From positions 186,001 to 250,000 of the forward strand of contig CAADRB010000089.1 in NCBI GenBank assembly GCA_900708905.1: 64,000 nucleotides of DNA, in the 5' to 3' direction. Positions 29,640 to 56,600 of this stretch are shown here, in pieces. The DNA is from Hymenolepis diminuta (Eukaryota; Platyhelminthes; Cestoda; Cyclophyllidea; Hymenolepididae). Every line of letters begins with the position of its first letter. Within the stretch, counting starts at the first letter, position 1. Under the pieces are notes generated by a model, which did not search any database, was not told the DNA's origin, and saw nothing but the letters and a program-made list of their open reading frames with translations. A program made the position numbers and the translations under genes.

Positions 29640-31194
29640 CTACGAACGAAGACTCTTAATCTGATGCAGCAGAATTGCAGTAGCAGCTGCTACATTCAGA
29701 GATGTTGGAAGAGGCGAGGATTCCGAGGAGCAGTCATCAAGCTGATCGACAAGACCAGGAATTCTTACAATCAGATTGCAGGTGGACAACACAGAATCAG
29801 ACAAGCCGCACGCTTCCGATCCAAGAACAAGGACCAGAGGCTGTGGGGGGCCATTTTTACGGGCTCCAACCTAAGGAAAAAATAAGTAGATAAATTAGTA
29901 GAAAGATGGACCAAAATTTGGCGAGAAATTCAATCAATGGATAGAAGAAAACAACCAAACATCAGTCAAAAACTAAGGTATGATAAGAGTTCAGATAATT
30001 CGTTCTAAGAGTCACAACAGTGTTCTTTTTTGAAGATTTAAGATGACACTTGGGGTGGCGTATTATCAATCTAAACACTACCATTAAAATTTATCGAAAT
30101 TAAGCACAAATAACTTTCCATTTAATGACTAAAATTCATTAAATATGGAAATCCTGAACAGAAAATAAGTTTACTAAGATCACACACAAACAGCTTCAAT
30201 CAATGATGCTGATAGACTTAGTAGTTGTCATAAATGCAAATAATGAAGCACAAATAGCATATTTTTCAACTAGAGAAAAGGAAAAATCGCATGTAAACAT
30301 CAATATTCAAATAGTTTCCAATTCAGCTTTCCTTCTTAATATGAAATATTATATACATTAACCTACTATTTGCGACCCTACTCGGCATAACTCAAGAGGG
30401 GGAGGGTGATTAAGATTTTCTGACAAATTTGACTGCATTCCGGAAGTACCGACAATAACGAAACCTGCATTGGAAAGTTGTTTCAGTGCAGAGACTGGAT
30501 TAGTCACTCGAAAGAACTTTAGAGACTCCATCGCTCCGGAACTCAGTTTGCTAATTAGAGGAGAAGGTGAAGCGGAAAAGAAGGCGGAAATGAGAACACT
30601 TGGGATGCCAAAAAAGACAGCTGAGCGGAGAATGCTTCCCATGTTCATGACATCTTGAATTTGATCGAGAAATAGGATAATTGAAGCAGAACCACAACAA
30701 GAGATCGGTTTTATTCCATTATAACCACAATGATTAAAATGGAGAAGGGAACTGGCTAAGATGCCTTTGAGATTCGGCATGGGGATCGGTGTACACTCGA
30801 TTGCAATTCCCTGATTAGATCTACCGTTAGTGAGTACACTGAGAAAATCACGTGTGACTGATTTCACTTCAATTTTCATTGCAGCCTTTTGAACAGCTGA
30901 GGCCAACCATGGATTCCTAGTTTTCAGTTCATCATAAGGAAGGTTAAATAGATCTTCCCTCAAAAACACGCGAGAAACGGTGCGCTGCTTTCCGCATAGA
31001 GCAGCTAGTGAAGGTTGAATCCCATAAATGATTTCTGAATTTTGACAATTGTTACGTATCTTTTCGATTTCATGGCGAGACTCCTCGGGAAGCGCGCGAA
31101 TCCCACCACTGAAACGAAGCCTCTGTAAAAGAGAAATCGATGCAGTACTAGCATGTGGTCTCAAGTTCACAAAGAAATGATGGAGTTGGAACAT
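29640..31194 (-). CDS. MRM1: Mitochondrial rRNA 2'-O-methyltransferase (SpoU/TrmH family)
   Basis: In mammals MRM1 2'-O-methylates a guanosine of the mitochondrial large-subunit rRNA using S-adenosylmethionine. There are two exons: 30382-31194 (ATG, 271 codons, ending CGA/GTAGGG) and 29640-29870 (acceptor TTTCCTTAG, TAG stop), joined in phase 0. The total is 347 aa; the human protein is 353. An N-terminal SpoU substrate-binding segment (IYGIQPSLAALCG) precedes the SPOUT knot. Its three motifs are present: LDQIQDVMNMGSILRSA (motif 1, with N and R), LVLVLGSEACGLS (motif 2) and SLNVAAATAILLHQ (motif 3). The first residues are Phe/Leu/Arg-rich, which fits a mitochondrial presequence. The start at 31194 is the first ATG of the frame. 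Confidence 0.93.
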
Positions 31195-31650
31195 TAATTA
31201 GCTATATGGCGTTCTGCTATTGAATAGTAATATATAAATAATGAGAAAGCTTTATCATACAATATTTCAAATTACAAAATTATCCCTTATCTCTTATTCT
31301 TCGAACATGCACACTTTTTCGTACAATCAAGGTGACAATAGTCATGATTGATTAACTAAAAGCATACATTTTTAAATGAAGCATTAATACAGTACTGACT
31401 GTTCCGATTCAAATTTAGTTCTCTTGTTTTCCAAAAAACAGATTTGTATTAACATAGGCTTATCGAACATTTTGTTTTGAAAAATGAAGGAATATTTCAG
31501 CATATATTATTTATGTATACATTTATTATTTAACCACAACGCTGAAAATTAGGAAATTTAATGTCTTCTCACCTGTACCTTAGGAATCGGTTTCGTGTAA
31601 ATAGCATAACGCAGTGTCTTGTACCTTGCACTTTCTACTGCGTCACAAAA
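31195..31650. promoter_or_regulatory. Shared divergent upstream region of MRM1 and KRTCAP2
   Basis: This 456-bp AT-rich spacer lies between two oppositely oriented start codons and is probably a bidirectional promoter. No specific element is recognised. Confidence 0.35.
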
Positions 31651-32281: not shown

Positions 32282-35200
32282 TTAGCCACGATTATTGTAG
32301 GTGAACTTCTTTATTATTACCGATTGATCCACATCAGAAAATATATTCGGAGCACTGATTAGGATGATTATCATGCCACACGTCGTTATGCAGAGGAAAA
32401 TGATAAGTTGAATTCTGTCAATGACCGATGCGACATGTTTCCAATTCTCACGTACCTGAAAAGCCAAAAAGTGTAAAGAACTCTCTAAATGCTGTGAGTT
32501 CTTACGATGGTATACTCACCATTTGCTGTTTCTCTCCAGCTATTACATGTTTTGTTATTTTGTCTACCTTTTTTATTATTGTATCCAAGCTCCTATTGAT
32601 GCTTTCAAGTAGTGTTTCGGATGTCTGATATGTGTTGCACAAGTTGCAGCTGAATCTGACCTATAGATGAAACGTAATTCAATTAGGCATTCTCTCTGTA
32701 CCCTTCTCATCCGTATATCAGTTAACTGTCACAAAATGTAATTTAGTGCATTAAAACAGGTTTAGTTCTTTTCGTATTTCTTAAGAAATACTGTTTCCCA
32801 ATTTGTGTATTTTTAGTACCATCTTAAAATGTGATTTGGAGTATGAAAGGAGGCTTGATTTTTAATTTTGTTAGATAAAGGTATAGTATATCGCTGCTTT
32901 TACTAGCTAAGCGTACGGTAAATATAAGTATGACAAGGAAGGAAGAAATCTGTGTTCAGCGATAAGATATCTATTTCACTTTAAGCACACAATATTTTTT
33001 AGAGAGGAATAATTCGGAATAGCCTGCATAATTTGGTTAATTTTAGGCAAGGCGGGGAAGATGATGCGGATAATGTACTCACGGACCTTTTGTTCAGAGG
33101 TCTCGACTCTCAATGTATGCCTCTGATGAGAAATGCCTCCGTTGACTGGTTTTAGCCGGTGTAGCTAGTCATTCCGTTCACTATATGTGCATCGATGGGT
33201 ATCGAATTAACGACCAATAATATTTTGACATACACTTTGACTACTACAACAAGATAATTTCAGCGAGAACATATTCCATTTGATAGAATTTACTAAGTTT
33301 GACTTATAGACATTTTGTTAAGTGAATCCTATTAATGTGACGTTAGTTAATGATATTTTCTATGTAGCCGTTCATCTAACCTAAAGCCCCCCTCAATTTG
33401 TGTCTGAATTTCATCGTTTTTATATATAGATATTACTTATTATACCTAAGTAAGTAAGTAAAACGGTTAGACTATATTAAATTGAGTAAAGGTGGATAAG
33501 CAATCGAATTCCCCTTTAATTGTTAGATTGTATGAACTATATTCTAAAATGCTAAGTACGCTTTATTAAGACCTCATATCTTATTTTACGAATGTCCTAC
33601 ATTCTTTTATGTCATGTCTCTTCAGTCCTGTCTGATTCGAGGTACGCTTGTTAATTAAGATAAGCTTCAGTGGTGAAAGCTCGTCTAGGACTTCTTCTTC
33701 CTGAATGCGGATAAAATTGAAATTCTTTTAATCTTATTTATATTTAAACTTACTGAATTTCCTAGAAGAGAGCATTCTTTACTATTGCAAAGAGTAGGAC
33801 CAACTTCGCGGATTTCGTTTTTCAGACTATTTTCCTCCGATTCATCTGTATCAGATGTTGAATTACTTTCCTCATTAGTTTCTACCTTCCTATAAAATAA
33901 ACGGAGAAGGTTAAATTACAATCGCAAACGTTTGAGATGGTAGTGAACATAAGGACCTTTGAGGACACAGAACTGGACGGAGCCATGGGATAAACACTCG
34001 TCGAATCCATTTTGGAATTTTCGGATTACTTTTAGAATTTCGATGATTCAAATTAATAATCACTGCTGCAGTGATGCACAAACTCAAGAATGCCATCGCA
34101 AAAGTAAAGAGAAGGAATTTCGATAGAAGAGGAATGCTTTTCGTCCCAGCTGGAAGCATCTTGCTTACTAGAATCATGTAGACCACAATGGTAACCAGAA
34201 TACTGATGGAAAGAGTGATTTTTTCCCCCGCATCTGTCGGTAGACAAAACACACAAATCCCAAGTAGAGCTATAAGTGCGCAAGGAATGATTATGTTTGT
34301 AATGTAGAAAAGTGGCTTTCGACGAAGGACAATCTTGAATGAAATCCGAGAAGTGGGTGGACGATTGGAGATAGTTCCATGACGATAGAGAGGTGAAGCT
34401 TTCAGTCGCTCGTCATAAACTGGAGGCTCGTCGATATGGAAGTAGCCAGGACCTTCTATGAAGTCCCAGACTCCACTTGGAACATAGTCCGATAAATCGA
34501 TATTAGTTTGGTTTTTATAGAATTGCAGTTCAACCTATTGAACACTCAGAATCGTATACTCCAGTTTACCTCATCTTTAGTGTAGGTCCAACTTCCTAGA
34601 TCTATTCGACAGGTCTGCTCATCGAAGGGAAAGTACTTGACGTCTATTTCACAGGAAGTCTTGTAGATTATCGGTGGGATCCAGAGAACATGTCCGTCAT
34701 TTTGGAGAACCACGTTCGGTTTAAACGTTGCTTCGAATTCGCCATCAACACTTAAATAAGTAGTGAGTATAAATATAACTTTAATGTACTTGTTTAGAAC
34801 GACAATGTCTGGTCTCCAGAGCTTGTGAATAGCAATATTGATCGATTCAATACCTGCGAATTCTCTGGGATTCCAGGCCAATCGGTAGTCAAACCATGAC
34901 TGAACTATGTAGTAATTAAGGAAATATCAGACCTACTATTCGCAGCCATACATTGCTCTTGAGGCGCTGATACTTTTCATCCTATTTAGAAGAATAAAAT
35001 TGAAGTTGTTTGAACATTATACAGTTTCAACTTTCTTTTTTTTCACTGTTTGCCTCCAAGCGGACAGAAATTTGAGCATTCGAAAAAATGAATTGGCCAA
35101 GGTACAGAATAATGGTTATTATAAATTACAAACTGATTATCAGAAAAATAATACATATCAGCTATTCTAATTTATGCAGAAGCATTTAATGCTTAACGCG

Positions 35201-38454: not shown

Positions 38455-39413
38455 CAACAGTAACCAGGAGTACTCATCAGACACATATTAGAATCTAAAT
38501 CATAGAGAAGACCTGACGGCACCGGTTCATTAGAACCTATTCATACACTGACTTGGAGGAAGTAAATTTCGCTACAGCATCGTCAAGGTCATTGAATGGT
38601 GTAGTATTTAATCCTCCTGGTTTTTCAAATAGGCAATTCCTCACAATGTACATTGGATAGGCGGAGAGATATTGAACATATGACTAAAGGATATAAAATT
38701 AACTGACAAATCACTTAAATTAATAACGTTTCAAGATCGTCAAAATGCATGCCAAAATTATGTTTCTTTTCATTGATTTGATATATTGAGATCTTGGCAA
38801 ACTACTGAACATCTAAATTTTGTAAACTGTTGACCAACATTGCGCTGGTAGCGCAATCGCTAACGTACTCTTAGGTGAAATCAGAGGTCGTATGTGTACA
38901 TCCAGTGAGCACAATGGCCAATTAGAGATGTCAAATCTGACTAATAAAACAGCAGTTCTCCATCAGGGAGTCGCTATGATGCTATAATTCTACCAAAGAT
39001 GAGCGTTGGACAATCATCAGTGTTCAGGCTTTTCAAGTCAGAAATGCAGATGACCAACAGTAAAGGTCAATTTTAATCAGCAAGAGAATATCTGATTGTT
39101 CGGAATATTTACCTCTACTCCTATTAATGGTTTTTAAATATTTACGGAGCAAATAATAGGCTAAACTTTCTAATTTTAATATGTTTATCACTGTAGCATC
39201 GACAGCAGCAGCTCGATACCTTTCCATAAACTTGATGATACCCGATTTTTCAGTTGCTGTTGATTGCACAATTTCTTCAGCTGAAAGGAGACTGGAGGGC
39301 TAACAATGGACGTTGTTGTATAGTAGGCCATCTTGCGGCCGCAGTAGTTGTGGTTGTTCCTCTAGTATTAGTGGTCGTGGTGGTAGTTTTTACTGTTAGT
39401 TTCTGTGTTTCAT
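38455..39413 (-). pseudogene. Decayed two-domain VAL (SCP/TAPS) copy
   Basis: Three parts of the intact neighbour's architecture are recognisable in order. First, a Thr-rich linker at about 39310-39413 (KTTTTTTNTRGTTTTT). Second, the start of SCP domain 2 at about 39160-39275, containing EKSGIIKFMERYRAAAVDAT; the intact gene has EKAGLIRFMDTFRSTVTPTA. Third, the main domain-2 exon at about 38455-38690 with YIVRNCLFEKPGGLN and LLYDLDSNMC. A frameshift lies between linker and domain, and in-frame stops and another frameshift break the last exon. Domain 1 and the final exons are not found. Confidence 0.75.
38843..39015 (+). repeat. SINE-like repeat, copy 5
   Basis: The head is GGTAGCGCAATCGCTAACG followed by AAATCAGAGGTCGTATGTG. 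The tail contains TCAGGGAGTCGCTATGATGC and TACCAAAGATGAG, matching the tail of the copy at 2.2 kb. It lies between two remnant exons of the decayed VAL copy, so it may have helped break that gene or have entered an intron. Confidence 0.5.
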
Positions 39414-39429
39414 TCTAGATGCGGAGGTT

Positions 39430-41917
39430 GATTCCCCATTTGGTTTAACCTGGGTAGGCACAACAACTTGATCCTACCTTAGATCGTTTCACTTAACGCT
39501 AATTGTCTCTGAACAAATACTTTTCTTCGATGTCCGGTGCTTATTGACCGGTTGTATAAGTAGAACCTGTTGTATTCTAAGCCACCTTATCTCGACTAGA
39601 ATACCCTGCTTTTACAATTTCTCCTATGTCCCTTTGATACGTCTTTATCCGACCAAATTTCCCTATTTATGTGTTTACCTAGACTGATGTATATGCATCC
39701 AGCGCCCTCAATAGATGCAGCTGCGTAAACTCTCCGTTGTATCATCCCTATATGGCTAAATTTTTCCGAATAAAAATAGCCCTCTACTGTACTAGTGCAG
39801 CAAGCAGAAAATCACTCAAACTCATCCTTTTCTACCAAAGATTGAGAAAGCAGGATATTCTTATATGATCTATGTATAGCAGACTTACGTTAATCAATTA
39901 TATTATAATCTTTTATGTCTGGATCCTTCCCAAGATTAACAATTGCTATATTTCAGCATTTCCATGGGTAATAGTTCTAATAACAGCTTAATCGGTTGAT
40001 GGCTTATTCTGTTTAGTTTTAAACTCACAATAAAATGCTGTCCTAACTTTAGCTGATCAACGAGAAATAAAATAAGCGATAAAATTCAAATGCATAATTA
40101 TTTAATTTATCATCTTTATTTAATTACTTGTTTAATTCTTGCAATATGATATCCGAAGCATAACTCATTCACTGCATTTGTGTAAATTAACCATTCAGTA
40201 AAAAGTTAAATTGACTGTATCGAGAAGAAAACGATTTCGAATTCTGGTGCATTGCATTTGGCTGTCTGAATAATTTTTGATGCATTCATTTCTGGATTCA
40301 ATTTCTTCACAGCTTCAGATAATGTTGATCATGGAGGTCAGCTTTCAATAACGAGTATTTTATGCTTAGCAGAAATTTCTAATATTTGGAAATATTTTAT
40401 GAAACTTTACGGTAAAACAGTGGATGCATTGTGAATTTCCTCTAAACAAGATTGCTGTCTCCAACATGAATTCACTTTAAGTTATCAGTTATTGTTAGTA
40501 CTAATATCAAACAAGTATTACCACTGAGAATTTAATTTTATCGCTGATTTTCAAATCGTACAGATATTCACATTTAAACACATTACCCTACTACAAACTA
40601 TTCATATTGAAAACATCAACTTTTGACAACAGGTAGATATAGGATGGTGTATGAAAAAACAAACGACCTAACATCATGCCTTTCAACAGATCTTGACAAT
40701 TCATTTCAAAATATTATTATTAATATTAGTCTCCCTTATGAATCATTATGAGTTCATAAGTTTGGCCATGAGTAACAGGCAAAAAATGAGAGACGTACAA
40801 ATTTGTCAATCGAACTGATACATTTAAAAAGGGTATCATATTAATATTAATACAAGACTATGTAAGGTGGATTAATTCAATGCTAATAAAAAGATAGCAA
40901 ATGACAAGATTCCCAATTTCAGACATCCTGAGATAATCGGGGTTTCACAATAAAAAAACAACAAATTATTTTTTTATTTAGATAGGGACATACCTAAGTA
41001 GAAATCCTACTTGTGCTATCCATTCAGGAGCAGCGGTCTAAGCTTTGCAATGGACCGATCAATGACAAAAGGACTTAAGCAGTTTGAGCACACGTCCGCA
41101 CTTATTCGCCACGCGATCAGTAACACGCCTCACTTTCCTAGTCAGCCTTAGTAGCGTTGTACAATCTCCGATTATAACTAACGGCAACTTTACACGTTTT
41201 ATACCTTAACCCACGTCTCGCAGACTTTTCCTAATACCATTCTTATTATTTATTTATCTAAATTCATTTAAACCATAACACCGATATTTAATGGTATATT
41301 TTATCGCTCTTCAGTTACTTAATGTTGGTAAATTTTATTGATGTACAAATAAAAATAGATGGTCTGTTTTTTCTCAAATTGCAACAAAATCGATAATATT
41401 ACTTGAGTAGTACGATATTGTTTATGCCTTCTGGTCACAGTAATTGCTAAAACTTAATCCTAAAATGTTCAGTTATCTCTGAACATCGTAGAATTGACTG
41501 CTCTTCCTATCCAGCAGGATAAAACCTAATTACAGAAATTTGGAATAACTAGAAATGCAGAATGAAATAATTTATGAATAATTTAATTAACTAACTTCTA
41601 GCTCTACTCATTTATAATTTTACCATTTATGTCGTTTAGATATTTATCTATAATTATAAATTCCAAGTTTTCCCCTTTTTGTAATATTACAATGCTTAGG
41701 TTTAGAAAATCGCTTGAAATCCGTGAAGCAACATTATTATTTAGCATTGATGGGATTGAGTACACACTAATAGAAACTTTAAATTAAATAAAAAGAAAAC
41801 AAAAATTCATGTATTATGTGATTATTATTACTATTTAAGTTTAAGATGTCAGTTAATAATTGAATTAGCACAATAATTCAACGAACTTTACTAAATGATT
41901 CATTTCATTCCTCCAAA
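39430..41917. other. Spacer within the VAL cluster
   Basis: AT-rich. I searched by eye for first-domain VAL exons of the decayed copy to its left and found none. No other gene is evident. Confidence 0.4.
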
Positions 41918-44763
41918 TTACTTCTCTGGGTAACAGAGTTTATTTCTTCCTATGGTTCCACTTGGACACTTACTCGCGCTTGGACCCTTAGTGTACGGTT
42001 TACTATTGAAATGAGCTCTGAAAAAATTCAAAATGTCATTTAACTTTACTAAGAAAATTCATGAGGTGATACAAGTAGACTACTTACGCGGAATTGTACA
42101 GACAGGCAACATGATGAGTATTTCCACATCTTGCGGCTCCGCATCCGATTTCTCTAACGTCATGCCAAGCCATCTAAATTTATGTAAATTTGAACAATTA
42201 GTCTCAGTTAAGAATAATCATTTTGATAATTTAAAATGAGAATATTTTGATTTACCTGCTGATAAGGTCTACAGTATGAATCAATGTTAATACGGCAAGT
42301 ATTGGAGTCGTAATCGTAATTGAGTCCTCTGCGCCACAAAAAAAGTAAGACGGTTTCAAACGTCAACTTGGAAGTTGTAATTCTTGTAACAGTAACTCCA
42401 AGATCATGGAGTACAGCTGCACCCAATTCTCTAGGGAACTCATGTTTGCAATTTTTCACAATATACAATGAAAAATTGGATAGAATTGGGGAATAAGCCT
42501 AAAGAAAATAAAGTGGCGCCATTATTTTGTTTGGTATTTAAAATTAAGTTAATTCATCAAAAAGCCGAAGATTGTTTCGTGTCTATAATTTACCACTTTC
42601 ATCATATCTGCTGCTGTAGGAGTGACGGTTGATCTAAAAGTATCCATGAACCTGATAAGGCCTGCTTTTTCTGACTCAGAAGGTAGCAAGAATTCGTCTG
42701 CTATTCCGGACAGAGGGGGAAGTGGAAGTGTGACCATAGTTGGGGTAGTTGTAGTTGTTGGTTTTCTCGTAGTCGTGGTAGTTGTGGTTGTTGGTCTGCT
42801 CGTAGTCGTGGTAGTTGTAGTTGTTGGTCTGATCGTAGTCGTAGTCGTAGTAGTAGTTGTAGGTTTAACAGTCGGTTTTTGTGCGCCACCCGCAACACAG
42901 AGATTGTTTTCACATGTGGTATCGGAGGGGCATGCGCTACAACTACGTCCTATCTTATACGGTCGAATATTCCTGTAGTTACCCCTGATATAAAATAATG
43001 CATTTGTAAGTGGATGGAATACAGGATCAATAAAATTCATAATTGTTAATATTGCTTACGGTGGCCTATATTGGCAAGCATATATGTAAACTGGTTTTCC
43101 CCAATTTGGTTTTGCATCTGGACACGATTTCCATGCACAGCCAACTTCAGTTGAAGTTGCCCATGCCATCTATATAAAATCATTTCGAATTATATTAATT
43201 TAGTCAATTACCGCAGTGTAGTGGCCACAAGCTCTCGCGTTGCACATAAGACTCTCTATGTTGTAACCTTTGTATTCGTTCCACCAGTTTTCAAGGGCAA
43301 CTGAAGTAAAATTGGGCTTTTGTCCACCAGAAATGGCGAGGTTTTGCCCTAGGCCTCTATATTCTGTGTCGGCTGCTGTTGGATGCTGAAAAACACATTT
43401 GTCTGTCCATTTTATAGCCAGTTTTTCCAGTTCCAAACTGTAGGTCTGAAATTTGATAAGATAATCAACGTATTAGTATATTTAATTTGATCTGGTATGT
43501 GCAATACAAATCAAACCTCATTTCCAGTTATTATTGGTAAATGTTTCCTTTCCTTCACTTTATGAATAAAACCACAAGGCAATTCCACAAATTTTGTATT
43601 ACGTTTTGAAATCGTCCCATGAAATTCGTTAAAGTGAGTTAAATAATTCGCCAAGAATTTGTATTTTTTAGAAATTCTGAGTAAGCTGGATGCTCCGTTT
43701 ACTTAAGTAAGGCAGGAAAAATAACAAGAATTCACAGAGGAACGAAACTTATTCACTGAAAGAAGTAGGAAATTGACAGTGTAAGAGAGTGAGAGAGATC
43801 GATCAATCTTTAATTGTTCACTTTATAAAATAGTATATTTAATCGGTCCACCCAAACCTATGCAAAGTACTTCAAGAGAGAAAAATAATAAATGGAGATT
43901 ATTATATGCAGTGAATTTATAGTAATTCCCCTGAAAGAGATACATTTGTGTAAATTTTTAAGAACTAGCCAAATTATCAATGCTTCGTTAGGTTTCGAAA
44001 CCAGTTGTTCTATTGCATATTTGATATTAGATCATTGCAAAATGATATGTTCATATGAATTCTAATATTACCAAGAACACAAAAAAGACCACGAATTCTA
44101 TAATGGAATTCTGCGGAGTTTGAGATACTGCAGAAGACCACTTGTGTGCAATTTGAGTTTCAAATAAAACCATATTCAATACGGGTTTCTCCCATTTTTC
44201 CCTCTATGGAAAATTCGATTTTTAAAACAGCCTGTTAGTACATTTTCTCCTTGTTCAATTTATTAATCTTGAAATGAAGTTGGTAATGCAACCACTCTTC
44301 CAAATTGTTGAATGAGAGCTTTCATATAATTATGGGAGTTACGAATTGAAAGAAAATGCATATATGATTATAACCTCAAGAACCAAAATTTTAAGGGTCA
44401 AACCGAAAAAGAATGTCAACGCACAAGAAAAGAAATCCTACGATCTCATGGACAGCCCCCTTCCATTTACTAGAACTTGAATGGCTATAATTTCGTCAGT
44501 CCAATATAATAAGTATTCAAAATGGTTTGGGTTTATCAATAAGTGGTAACTAAAGGATTGTATTTTTTTGGTAAATGAGAATCAAATTTCTTTAGGAAAA
44601 TTGAATTCATATTACTCACCATTTTCATCATATTTGAAGCAGAAGGTACAACGCTTCCACGATGACGATTGTGATTATCGATAATTTCTTGTCTTACTTC
44701 TTCAGTTAACGGGTCTGCATAGCCGAGAGATATCACAGAAAGAAGCAATATTAAGTTCATCAT
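41918..44763 (-). CDS. Two-domain venom allergen-like protein (SCP/TAPS), secreted
   Basis: VAL proteins are secreted CAP-superfamily proteins; in parasitic worms several bind sterols or lipids or act on the host. Exons: 44620-44763, 43212-43445, 43060-43169, 42594-42984, 42256-42498, 42088-42173, 41918-42017 (TAA); 435 aa, all phases consistent. A signal peptide ends near GYA. Domain 1 has IIDNHNRHRGSVVP, KWTDKC, GLGQNLAISGG, CGHYTAMAWATSTEVGCAW and a Cys-rich C-terminal hinge. A Thr-rich linker, TTTTTTTTTIRP and similar units (about residues 204-247), follows. Domain 2 begins EKAGLIRFMDTFRS and continues YIVKNCKHEFPRELG and MAWHDVREIGCG. Domain 2 keeps the MAW helix but has CRPYQQ where CAP domains have GHYTQ, so its cavity His is lost. 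The usual GENLA is GQNLA in domain 1, as in several flatworm VALs. Regulation is unknown. Confidence 0.93.
42760..42861. repeat. 33-bp tandem repeat encoding the Thr-rich linker
   Basis: There are three consecutive units, about 42760-42792, 42793-42825 and 42826-42861. Each on the plus strand has the form GGTYTKVTCGTAGTCGTRG plus a GTAGTTGT-type tail. On the minus strand each encodes a run of Thr ended by Arg-Pro or Arg-Lys-Pro. Length change in whole units would keep the reading frame. Confidence 0.8.
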
Positions 44764-44769
44764 TTTGCT

Positions 44770-45790
44770 TCCGCTTGCACTAATGTCCTCTACAACAGGT
44801 CCTTTATATACCTATTATCTCTTTTTAAAAAAAGTGAGACATATGCAGATTTTCACAAAAAAATACAAATAATTAATTCGTTTGAAAGACATTAACTATA
44901 ACTGAGTCAGAATAAAATTAGTATAAAAAATGTAACACCTTTGAACAAGCCACTTAACAACTCTTGATTTAATAACTTAAGATGGACTTAATCAAAAACT
45001 GCCGACAAAGTTTATTATTTGTGTGAAGTGTTGATTTATTATCGTGATTCACATTTAACGAAAGAGGTGTTGAGGGGAGGGGGGTATGAGATTGACGGTT
45101 CTCTACTGGGAACTTGAGGTTGCAGCAGAATCAAACACTTCAAGCCTCGCTCTAAAGTCGAGATAATTGAGCGTTAGAGATTACTAATGACCTAGATACA
45201 AATTTTAGAGATAATAATAATAAATATAAATATAATACAGATGAAAAATAAAAAAATGACAGAATCTGTTATAGGAAGAGTTAATTTATAACTTCTATGT
45301 AAACAATAAACATTTAAGATCGATCATTTTAGGTAAATATAAGCTCGTGTACTTCTAAAGATCGCCAATAGGCAAATCCGTTCAACATTCTCGTGATTTG
45401 AAACAAATTCTTAAAAATATTGGTTTCTTTATTCATTTAATTCAAAGAACCATACTAGTTTGACAAACAGATTGCTTTCAGTCTTTCACATTTGGAGAAG
45501 AGAGAGGAATTCGTTCCGTGGAAATTGGGAATTTGCCTAATTTATAATTAAATCTTGATTAGAAAATGAGAGTAATTTTCTTGTCATTTTGAGTTATTCC
45601 TCTAAAGTTGAATGTTTCTACTACAACGACTCGGAAATAAAAATAAAGTTTTGGAGTAAACAACTTAATCATGTTTTCTTTTGTAAAATTTGAGGAATTG
45701 AGTAAGTATCTTTGCAATTATTAATTACATTTGTATTGCAGTGACCTCCTCTATGAAGCAAGTAGGATATTTTTTCTGTAAATATTTATA
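44770..45790. other. Upstream region of the intact VAL gene
   Basis: The 5' flank of the VAL gene is AT-rich, with an AAT/AAAT-rich stretch near 45212-45240 and a G run at about 45077-45084. No gene seen. Confidence 0.4.
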
Positions 45791-50860: not shown

Positions 50861-50869
50861 TTCGTCATA

Positions 50870-52440
50870 GAGACGAGCAATCAAGTGGATATCATCGCGT
50901 TTAGTAGCTGAGCAATCTACGTCCAATATCTTGTGCCGGACCATCCATCTAAAAATGTGATCAATTAGCTACCTTGTGCGCAATCATACATACATGTAAA
51001 AGTCATGTTTGAAGTAGCTGATTGTGCTTGCTTATAGTCTTTACAATGGAACTTTGAGGCACTTTCAATGCATAAATTTGATGTGACGTCAAAGAGCAGA
51101 TCATCATACCACCAATCGAGAAAAATCTGTTCATACTTCAATGTGGAGATCCTAACTTTTGTGATGGTGACGATAAGTCCGGTGAATCTGCCTGAATCCT
51201 ATTTTTTAGGGTTTTCAAAATCCCGGTCTCTTATTATTTTGGTTGACATGATTCAGAGAAGCTTTGAATAAATCTGAAATGAAGTATTTATGAGTATGAG
51301 CTAAATGTCGGCTAGAAAACTTAGCAAGTGCTAAAATCTGTCTTGACTCTTCTGTTTTAAGTTAGCATACCCTTATATTACAAGCAACTGAAAGATGAAA
51401 TCTCTTTCTGAAAGGATAATTAAAGAACCGGACACAGTTGCTGAACAAATCGGACTCAGAACGGTGCCTTATTTGAGGATCTTTGCGGTATTTCGATTCA
51501 AGATAAGCAGTGAAGCTGAAGGAACATCATTTCAGTAATTGCATTTGAAACAATATTATTTTTCATCAGTATTGAGAAAAATTATTTGTGCATATGATTT
51601 TGTAGAAATATAATATTATTTATGCAGTCCTATGTTACACCTGTTTAATTTACAAGTTTAAACAATAATTATTATATTTTTTTATTAGCCGGACCTCACC
51701 ATTTTCAGCATTTTCGTCACTGTAGAATTAACAGTAGCCCTATATCTGTGAAAAGAATAATAAATACCTGTTTTGTAGCATCGAGCCCTGAGATATAATC
51801 AGCTGCTGAATTGGAGGCCTGGTTGTAACGCCATTAGCAGTAAGCCTGCCATTTTAGTGTTTATTCTCCTCGTTGTCTTAGTAGTGATTGTGGCCCTTCT
51901 TATTACGGTTGGTGTTTGGGAGTCATGAGAAATAGAGGTTATTTCCACAGGTACTACCAGCCTACCGGATATAGTCTCATTCTCTTGCAATTTCCTCCAA
52001 TGTAAGCAAGAAATAATGTTTAGGAACAGTTATTGATATGAAACTACATACGTTGGTTTATGCTGACAAACATATACGTAGACAGGCTTCCCTCAAGTGG
52101 AACTTAGGTCTGGACACGATTCCCATGCACACCAAAGTGCAGTTGTTGTTGCCCATACCATCTAATTTAATTATATTCAATAAGAGTAATTCGAGTAATT
52201 ACCACAGTGTAGTGGCCGCAGGATTTGTTATTACAAGCATTTGTTCGAATATCATATTTAAAATATTCGTACCTCAATTTATAAAGCGCAAATAGGGTAA
52301 AATTGAGCTGTGCCTCACCAGAGATAGCAATGCTGTGTCCTCTTCCCTTAAATTCACTATCACTAGGTCTTGAATATGCAAAACCCATCTATCTGCCCAA
52401 TTTTCGGCAAATTTTCCACTTCTAAACAATGGTGCTAAAA
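50870..52440 (-). pseudogene. Decayed two-domain VAL copy, almost full architecture
   Basis: The exons follow the order of the intact gene. Domain 1: FAENWADR, then HSIAISGEAQLNFT and CGHYT (about 52200-52440), then MVWATTTALWCAWESCPD with GKPVYVYVCQHKP (about 52040-52163). A TGA stop replaces the Trp expected before GKP. Next come a Thr/Arg linker (about 51840-51960), a domain-2 start FHRYRATVNSTVTKMLKM (about 51700-51775), domain-2 main exon IFLDWWYDDLLFDVTSNLC (about 51075-51200), and MVRHKILDVDC (about 50870-50952). The internal stop, frameshifts in the linker and domain 1, and the missing signal exon mark it as non-functional. Confidence 0.78.
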
Positions 52441-52984
52441 CAATGACTAGGAAAAGAAGAAATATTTTGGTATACGTATGATGCCGTGAATTGAAATTTT
52501 AAATTTAAAGTCACAATTATAAAATAAATTTTCTTCTTCTCTCCAATTAATTCAATATGATCTCAAACTTGCTTTCAAAATTATGGTAAAGTATAATAAA
52601 ATCACCCGCCTTAGATGGAAATTAAAATCACCTTGTTTTCGAGAAATGATTTTCATACAACCTTGAATACGGTAATATCTGCCTTTATTAAGTTGTAGCG
52701 TACTATTTAACGTTTCAACTAAATAATAGATTTATTCATTATGAAATCTTAGCGTTATCAGCAAATCAATCTTCGCATTTTAATACACGAAATAGCTCAA
52801 CTTTTGGACTTCAAATGGGAGAGACGAATCGCATTCTAGGAACAATCCAATAACTTTTCCAAAAATCAGAAGGAAAAGAGTTGAGATAGACCTGTTTTTC
52901 TTCTTCCTGTTTTCCTTTTAGAAGTAAACGAGATTTGAATTTGATTTGGCTGCTCAATTTGGATATCAGATGTTTACCACTTTT

Positions 52985-53650
52985 AGCGTGTTTACTGCTG
53001 TGAGACTGACAGCAATTTGATATATGTCCATGGATTTAATGATTCTTTCTTTTCAACCACATCAGGTTGCAAAACTTTGCTAGCAGTACCAGCTGAGGAT
53101 CAATAGGCGATCCAGTAGTAGTGGTGGTGACTGGTCTTTTGACTGTCGTAGCAGCGGTTGAAGATTTTCTGGTTGTCGTAGTAGCTATAGTACTTGCACC
53201 TTGGCTCTAATTTATGCGGCTTAGTATTCTATCCATTCCCTCTGGAATAAAAATTTTGTCAATTTAGAAGTGAGTATGGAATATGAAAAAGACACGGGGT
53301 TTGAACAGAGCGGTCGTAGTGTTGGGCATAGCTCCAGTGGATAACCAACTTCAATCGATGTGGGTTTAACCGTCTATTTTAATTTAAACTCAATTTCATA
53401 ATTCGAACACTTACTCATGTGTTAAGTCCGTCAGATTTTAAGCTACCAGAAGGGTCTTCAATATGGTAATAAGGATTTCCATTCTACCAGCTTTCATATG
53501 CGTTTGCAGTAAAATTGGGCAGTAAACCGCCTGATATGGCAAGATTTTTGTCCCGTACAAACGAATTCAGTGCCGGTTGGTCCTGGATGATCAAAACACA
53601 CTGTCTGCCCATTTTACGGCTAGAGCTTCTATATCTACACTGTGTCTTTG
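52985..53650 (-). pseudogene. Decayed VAL copy, truncated in domain 2
   Basis: Recognisable parts, in different frames: DIEALAVKWADS (53600-53640), NLAISGGLLPNFTANAYESW (about 53490-53555), TSIEVGYPLELCP (about 53325-53370), a Thr-rich linker with TTTTRKSSTAATTVKRP (about 53110-53200), and a domain-2 start RIIKSMDIYQIAVSLTAVN (about 52985-53045). There are several stops and frameshifts. The next copy begins about 550 bp further on, with no room for the rest of domain 2, so this copy is truncated. Confidence 0.7.
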
Positions 53651-53659
53651 AAATTTTAT

Positions 53660-56600
53660 AATAAAGTCTGAAAATCTTGTCATGTAATGCAAACTATGTA
53701 TCTTTCGTCGAATCTCGGCATTGATGAGTAATTTTTTATCTCATTATTGAAAATTTAATCAAAATGTTAAGGTTTAAAACCTATTTTAATTCTCCAATTA
53801 TTCATTCATATAACCATCGTTTACTTGTCAATGGAGTCGGTTTGGAAATTTAATTTCATTTAACTTTGTTACATATTTTCTACATGCATTTTAGTTACTT
53901 TCCAACGATTTCTGGAACATTCTTACACTTAATTGAAGTCACTCAATAGCTGACGTAACTTCTCTACGTTGAATACTATGGTATCGAACAATTTCCTAGT
54001 TAACTTGATCATATAATGCTTCTGAATAGACAAAATTTAATAGGGAAATAAGGTTTGTTAAAAAATCCGTTTCGCCTAAATTAAAACCATTTTCTCATAT
54101 TTCTTTATATACTTTCTTTATACACTTAGAAAAAATGAGATAAATGAAAAAAATTTTTCCAACCAAGAGATCGAAAAAAATGCCTTTCAGTGACTGACTG
54201 TCTAGTCAGTTCAAGCGTTTTCAGTAAACTCTGCCCTCATTTATTCCATTATTTCATACTTATTGGAGTATAGATGGAACCTATTTCTCAAATTTGGGTA
54301 ATTCCTTTATATCTGTTACTATTCTCATATTGAATTTCAATGACCCATTGACTCAACTTCCTTATAAAACACATTTCAACTCACGATCTCAACAATTGCA
54401 ATATAACTTTAGAAATGAGAACTGACCCATTGTCAGTAGACTTTATGATTGTACACAAGTGTGGATTTACAGTAGCGTAAGCTATGAAACTTGAGGGATT
54501 TTTGTGTGGAAGTGTGATTCATTTCATTTTACTTTAACAATTTATTTTCGGAAAATAAGGTTAATTAATGTCATTTTCTACTGAGATTACTCCGCCTATT
54601 ACATAAGAGAGACAAATAATTCCCTGCATTTTACATGATTATTACACCAAATGTATTTCATTTACGTAAATCGTACACAAAGAGGAATGTACGTTTTATG
54701 CTCAGGGTTTAAAAAATGCGCAATCAAGTTTGTATCTTTGATACGCTTTGAGTATGGGATGTACAGCTATCAATTTTGTATTTCGTGGAGATAGACAGAG
54801 TAGGTACTGATTCTTCGGTCCTGACATTTAATGCCTTTGTGGATCAAGATATTTGAAAACAATAAACCCAGCTTTGCATGAATATAGAACATTATCATAA
54901 TTGGAAAATGTTTCCACTGCATTCAGTAACAATATTTTAGGATTGATTTGATATAACATATTCAGGGTCATTGAAAGATTGATTAACACAGCTTACATTT
55001 ATCAAATTTTTAAAATATTGTTTAATTTTTTTGTAAATAGATTAAAGTGTTCTAGGGAAGATGACTACTCAAAATTCTGATTAAATGCGGCTTGGAGTTG
55101 AAACTAAAAAGTGATGTCTTAGCTACCCAAATTAGTATTACAAATGGGAGAATAAAGTTTTTTACTAGAACCATTTAAACATTACTTGTGAAAGATTTGT
55201 GGAGAGAAAATATTATGTGAATCTGGCCACATTGAAGTCAAGTTATTCCTGTCGGTAGAACAGTTAAAGGAGATTGAGAAAACCTCTTCAATTTATGGAT
55301 TAAAATAATAATGGAAATGAATCTTTTCATTACTTTGAATTTTAAACTATCGTAATCGCTTTATTTCTGGTAGAACTGGTCTTGAGGGTGTAATTTTAAT
55401 AATCAAATATTTAATCACCTTTTATTGGAATAAAAAATCAGCACTACAGGTTTTCACGTTTGCGAAATAATTACCTTCGTAATAATGAGGAAGTTTTTTG
55501 TTTTAATGCAACACTAACTCCGTCGAATGTTTCAGAACGGCCTTCAGAATCTGAAAAAAGTACTGATATTGAAAATATTTTTTCTTCATTTATGAACGAC
55601 TATTTTTGTGGATGTTTATTAAAAAAACTACCTCAAAGAAAATTTTTAAATTAGCTCTTCGAATAAAGAGAGCTTGGTTCTAGCTTTTGACATTGCCTTG
55701 AATCTTTTCATAGGGTTATCGGTTTACCTTTTATCCATTACTATTGCTTCTTTAATGTTCAATCCACCCTAAGTTTTGAGTTTTCTTTATCCCTTTCTTC
55801 CCTGATCGCCGATCATTGTATATACGGACGCGCATCAAGCATCCACAAAACACACATTCCTTTCCTCTTGATTAATCTATTTTATTTTATTTCTCATCAA
55901 CTTATGCGACATCTAAACCGAAATTCACCAAACATGAAGAAGGATCAACGCAAAACATCATCTATATTTACGTTCAAAATTATAATTTAGTAGCCATAAC
56001 TTGACAAATTTATAAAATTCGCTCGAAATGCTGTTTTTTACACATCAAATTCGTAACTGAGACAATAACAGTGTATATTGCTTTGTCTCCATACATTTGT
56101 TCAACTATTTCATGAAAAGATGACTTTCAAGTGTTCAGTACGTAAAGTGAATGAAACTTGGAGGCATCTAAATAGTGATCTTGCTATTTTTGTCAAACGC
56201 CCCATAGTCCAATTGTATTCTTACCTATCCTTTAATGGTTAAACATTATAAACTTATTTTGCTTTATTATGAATAACACCGAAAAACGTCAGTTAATATT
56301 CACATAATAACGAAATTGTTACTTGCTTTGTTTTCGTGACTAAATCACTGACTGATGTACTTCGAAATGTAGGTAACACCTTTTTTCCTTTTAAAATGCA
56401 ATGAGAGGACGGTAACAAAACGTATTTCATCGAAAACTGAGCATATAGCAGACAATTTTAGTGAGTAAACTTTGAAAATATGAAACTACACCCATCACCT
56501 CTTGTATGAAAAATACAAGAAATTAAAATTACGATTTTTTGACAGGTAAAGAATTGGGCCGGAATGAACCCGAATAAAGCATTGAACTTCAAAAACACTT

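Follow-up and report, generated by a model that had tools for sequence, protein, structure and literature searches.

An apparently intact cestode gene for a probably secreted two-domain VAL protein, probably of fused origin, with three decayed copies at one locus

Introduction

VAL proteins (SCP/TAPS; CAP superfamily) are widely studied secreted proteins of helminths. Within the window, the 64 kb of Hymenolepis diminuta DNA analysed here, one locus carries what looks like a gene for two such domains in a single chain, accompanied by degenerate relatives of the same gene. We consider it likely, at a probability of about 0.75, that this is an apparently intact gene for a secreted two-domain VAL of a cestode, that it arose from fused genes and that three copies of it have decayed.

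Results

Seven exons and a single reading frame

The gene lies on the minus strand (44763-41918) and encodes 435 aa in seven exons, as follows (D1 and D2 are the first and second CAP domains):

44804..44810, minus strand: TATA-like motif, 41 bases 5' of the ATG (pattern scan; a consensus match only)
44620..44763, minus strand: exon 1, hydrophobic start resembling a signal peptide (residues 1-16), together with the first helix of D1
43212..43445, minus strand: exon 2, core of D1, phase 0
43060..43169, minus strand: exon 3, D1 with the MAWATS motif, end phase 2
42594..42984, minus strand: exon 4, Cys-rich hinge of D1, Thr-rich linker and first helix of D2 in a single open frame
42256..42498, minus strand: exon 5, core of D2, phase 0
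42088..42173, minus strand: exon 6, D2 with the MAWHDV motif, end phase 2
41918..42017, minus strand: exon 7, remnant of the D2 hinge and stop codon

The joined frame is free of stops and all six introns (1174, 42, 75, 95, 82 and 70 bases, in order) are bounded by GT and AG, in agreement with the proposal of an earlier note on this DNA that seven phase-consistent exons form one fused gene. The two SCP domains share one reading frame and are linked via exon 4, where splice sites and phases agree. Downstream of the stop codon, no AATAAA was found within 418 bases and a single ATTAAA lies at 330 bases.

Features suggestive of secretion are the hydrophobic residues 1-16 and the Cys content of the two domains (10 in D1, 8 in D2); group 1, or secreted, VALs are marked by a signal peptide together with disulphide Cys. 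Residues 1-15 form the most hydrophobic 15-residue window of the protein. Outside the N-terminus, the most hydrophobic window falls within D2 (residues 293-307), and no signal-peptide-like window was seen ahead of D2 when hydrophobicity windows were taken over the whole protein.

Two CAP domains with the same exon layout

The presence of two CAP domains, also part of the earlier proposal, is upheld by the Pfam CAP profile (PF00188), which scores 92.4 bits on the full-length protein over two separate stretches, the better being residues 29-160, and matches D2 alone with 34 bits (E 6e-8) at a cut-off of 21.1 bits. D1 matches GLIPR1 (3q2r) with an E value of 1e-30. The two domains are 28% identical to each other (BLASTP E 3e-17), their local alignment scores 156 against a best of 64 among 2000 shuffles, and 8 of the 10 Cys of D1 have a counterpart in D2. 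Each of the three exon junctions inside D1 has its counterpart at the aligned residue of D2 (48/293, 126/374 and 162/402), and the phases of the internal introns are 0, 0 and 2 in both. Since the introns are aligned and of equal phase, and since two single-domain paralogues, one at C1:6.90 Mb and one at C63:891 kb, are spliced at the same positions and in the same phases, D2 appears to be an entire VAL gene body fused behind D1.

Alternatively, D2 may have come from an internal duplication of D1 rather than from fusion with another paralogue. D2 has diverged further than any other tip of the tree, and the branches around it, which would indicate its nearest relative, have supports of only 35 and 44, so that duplication may be its source. 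The failure of D2 to find a homologue in any of 322 candidates (below) is a further point against our reading of the gene as a whole, and the shared layout with single-domain paralogues is a point in its favour.

Cavity residues

Alignment with GLIPR1 and the paralogues places His69, Gln82, Glu105 and His123 of D1 at the cavity positions, that is, three of the four residues of the tetrad, and Phe, Val, Arg and Pro of D2 at the same positions, none of which belongs to it. A CRISP-like cavity, with two His and two Glu, is thus found in neither domain. The earlier description of the first CAP domain as canonical holds for both cavity His and fails for one Glu of GLIPR1, which is replaced by Gln. 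The same Gln occurs in both halves of a Taenia crassiceps protein discussed below and in three of the seven aligned paralogues. Three further paralogues lack the second cavity His, and those on C36 and at C63:796 kb lack both; loss of cavity His is therefore not unique to D2. According to PMC6193718, the cavity His are absent from the majority of the helminth VAL sequences available, and two VALs without them, SmVAL4 and HpVAL-4, rescue sterol export in yeast.

A threonine-rich linker within exon 4

As had been suggested, a mucin-like linker separates the domains: residues 199-250, within exon 4, comprise 33 Thr and 7 Pro out of 52 and are encoded by a short tandem repeat.

42737..42859, minus strand: 33-bp tandem repeat, 3.7 copies, encoding the Thr/Arg/Pro linker

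Judged by composition, the linker is probably O-glycosylated. The paralogue at C63:891 kb ends its last exon in a Ser/Thr-repeat tail and has no D2; a tail of this kind is a possible source of the linker.

The existence of such a paralogue, with a D1-like domain and a Ser/Thr tail, lends some weight to another reading of the locus, in which the working product is D1 with a Thr-rich tail, splicing to exon 5 is rare, the message is read for a few codons of intron 4 until it meets a stop, and the exons of D2 are a leftover subject to drift. The frame does continue beyond exon 4 and closes only within intron 4 (open frame 42549-43055), and D2 has both lost all four cavity residues and diverged the most. 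Exons 5-7, however, form an open frame whose splice sites and phases are correct, D2 keeps its eight Cys and it still scores above the Pfam cut-off, and we regard this reading as unlikely.

Three decayed copies of the two-domain gene

Besides the intact gene, the locus holds three relics, all on the same strand as that gene and none of them complete:

38457..39504, minus strand: relic A, remnants of exon 5 and of the hinge, Thr-rich stretch and D2 start of exon 4, with stops and a frame break
50864..52382, minus strand: relic B, exons 2 and 3, a weak Thr-rich stretch, D2 start and exons 5 and 6, with stops
52978..54052, minus strand: relic C, remnants of exons 1-4 including the Thr-rich stretch, and D2 start, with stops and a frame break

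Exons 1-3, 6 and 7 were not found in relic A, exons 1 and 7 in relic B, nor exons 5-7 in relic C. The best pieces in the search of the whole window, reported here for queries other than the linker, were exon 5 of relic A (E 8e-9), exons 3 and 2 of relic B (5e-15 and 7e-13) and exon 2 of relic C (4e-7). The pieces corresponding to the start of D2 are weak when taken singly (E 0.003 in relic A and 0.055 in relic C over the whole window; 0.009 in relic B and then only in a narrower search, which covers minus-strand matches to queries other than the joined domains), and their order along the DNA is correct. We note that relic B follows directly after relic C, and that the interval between them (52382-52978) looks like a single deletion of the end of C together with the start of B.

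In the six frames of the window, seven stretches reach the threshold of 8 Thr in 25 residues, four of which belong to the intact gene and to relics A, B and C and sit in each case after the hinge of D1 and before the start of D2. Per 25 residues, the intact gene has 19 Thr, relic A 14 and relic C 12, the three richest, and relic B has 8, exactly the threshold; the remaining three stretches lie elsewhere in the window, one of them out of frame within exon 2. The claim that the decayed neighbours share the design of the intact gene accordingly stands in so far as all three retain a Thr-rich stretch with a remnant of the D2 start behind it, and goes too far in so far as no relic has every element. 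Over 261 aligned codons, the differences at positions 1, 2 and 3 number 95, 82 and 131 (p 0.0019), a pattern that would fit past coding constraint, although the choice of pieces by protein similarity itself biases the count toward an excess at position 3.

With three copies out of four decayed at this locus, the fourth could be a young pseudogene as well, silent and yet open. Against this stand 435 codons free of stops and frame breaks, the full set of splice sites and the TATA-like motif upstream, and we hold it to be very unlikely.

CAP genes in the rest of the genome

Lineage markers point to a cestode: the Taeniidae antigen family (PF05596), which is not known outside cestodes, gave seven matches over cut-off against none in 14 controls, and the one hit of the D1 search (below) is from T. 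crassiceps. A taeniid spliced-leader stretch gave no match with up to 3 mismatches, which speaks against a close taeniid unless the leader sequence used was faulty. PF00115 likewise gave no match, and PF08034 and RF00198 gave none here and none in the controls. The assembly searched comprises 170.6 Mb in 203 contigs. Queried with D2, it returned seven matches at E<=1, all seven at this locus: four are the intact gene and three are relics A and B. With a home-made profile (E<0.5) applied to selected stretches, CAP exons were found in at least 15 places outside this contig; no second domain joined to them was seen in the flanks covered, mostly ~1.5 kb, and the 5 kb flanking the window at each end yielded no CAP exon. 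One tabulation of these CAP loci is confined to queries other than the linker piece and to loci other than L001.

A signal-peptide-like start is clearly present in six of the ten first exons inspected by eye (C202, C63:876, C63:880, C63:891, C36 and C141). Two loci at C63:876-880 kb (L024 and L027) are tandem single-domain CAP genes, each with such a start, an arrangement that could give rise to a fusion. At the other end of the protein, four of eight paralogue last exons, again by eye, encode a hydrophobic C-terminal tail as in GPI-anchored proteins (C1:6906471, C63:877140, C63:890984 and C110:1022759); the window gene lacks one. Downstream of the cluster, the window also contains two open frames on the minus strand, one with a neurotransmitter-gated ion-channel membrane domain (33911-34534; PF02932) and one with a SpoU rRNA methylase domain (30358-31197; PF00588).

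Known double-domain proteins

The full-length protein gave 24 matches from the 7978 candidates sharing most words with it, a search probably swamped by the Thr runs. With the D2 region as query, none of 322 candidates reached E<=10; with the D1 region, one of 48 reached E<=1e-5, the T. crassiceps protein. Because candidates were limited to 0.55-1.75 times the query length, single-domain relatives are under-sampled in these searches.

The two-domain form, which the earlier note set against mostly single-domain worm VALs, is not new: double-domain SCP/TAPS proteins are already described in trematodes (PMC3284463) and in nematodes (3nt8). The former source gives 11 double-domain predictions among 148 SCP/TAPS sequences of trematodes, nine of which keep the SCP fold in both halves and were accepted. 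These resemble the present gene in coming from flatworms and in having two SCP domains per chain; they differ in that eight of the nine fall in Cys-group 2, and the word 'linker' is absent from the main text of that paper. Hookworm Na-ASP-1 (3nt8), which D1 matches with an E value of 4e-22, is likewise a secreted chain with two CAP domains, and its structure has been solved. According to PMC5893428, one of its domains bears the cavity His and the other does not, as in the window gene; Na-ASP-1 is a nematode protein, however, and it is the N-terminal domain that lacks the His there and the C-terminal one here. In the blowfly, an insect whose genome carries tandem CAP arrays, a single CAP gene, LCSc0-DD1, is of the double-domain type, and the main text of its description (PMC7694928) mentions neither 'linker' nor 'threonine'. 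No double-domain VAL of a cestode was met in the titles and abstract openings of the literature searched, although one may be in print.

The T. crassiceps protein, P0025 ('Peptidase inhibitor 15', 396 aa), is a cestode sequence with two CAP domains, each ~47% identical to D1 and each with Gln in place of the cavity Glu. Unlike the window gene, P0025 has no Thr-rich linker, has the cavity His in both domains and has a second signal-peptide-like stretch in mid-protein, because of which we read it as probably two tandem genes merged by annotation. Published tallies of double-domain proteins may, we infer, include joins of this sort. The same reading of the window gene, as two neighbouring single-domain genes merged by prediction only, could draw on P0025 and on the tandem single-domain genes at C63:876-880 kb, and is rejected as highly improbable because the D1 hinge, the linker and the D2 start are read in the same frame from exon 4 and the hydrophobicity windows show nothing like a second signal peptide ahead of D2.

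Discussion

We favour an origin of the gene by fusion. Two adjacent VAL genes on the same strand, each of the usual four-exon layout, would have been joined end to start: the final exon of the upstream gene, encoding the CAP hinge and a Thr-rich tail, would have become continuous with exon 1 of the downstream gene, which would have lost its signal peptide. The fused gene would then have been copied at the locus, where three of the copies would have decayed.

With regard to function, we tentatively propose from these sequence features an extracellular two-headed binding protein, a suggestion that we put below even odds. D1, whose cavity would be largely that of CAPs known to bind ligands (sterol/lipid or cation), may serve as the ligand head; D2, as a disulphide-stabilised CAP scaffold devoid of cavity residues, may be a module for the binding of a partner; and the linker, if extended and O-glycosylated, would act as a spacer that keeps the two apart. 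Somewhat more doubtful is the broader idea of a CAP-mucin-CAP family of the cestode lineage, in which a ligand-binding head and a cavity-less pseudo-domain would be joined by a glycosylated hinge coded by repeats and variable in length, with an origin in the fusion of tandem VAL genes and with birth and decay confined to a single locus. Were this the case, the length of the linker would differ among individuals.

What is distinctive about the gene is its mucin-like hinge, the combination of two unlike domains, D1 with its cavity His and D2 lacking all four cavity residues, and birth and decay restricted to one locus. It is an unusual form of a well-known family of worm proteins, a modest addition to it and not a novel kind of system. 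The gene illustrates how a two-domain form can originate by fusion with every intron kept in place, helps to tell a genuine double-domain gene from joins made by annotation, of which P0025 is probably one, and provides, in one chain, a natural pairing of a cavity-bearing with a cavity-less CAP domain.
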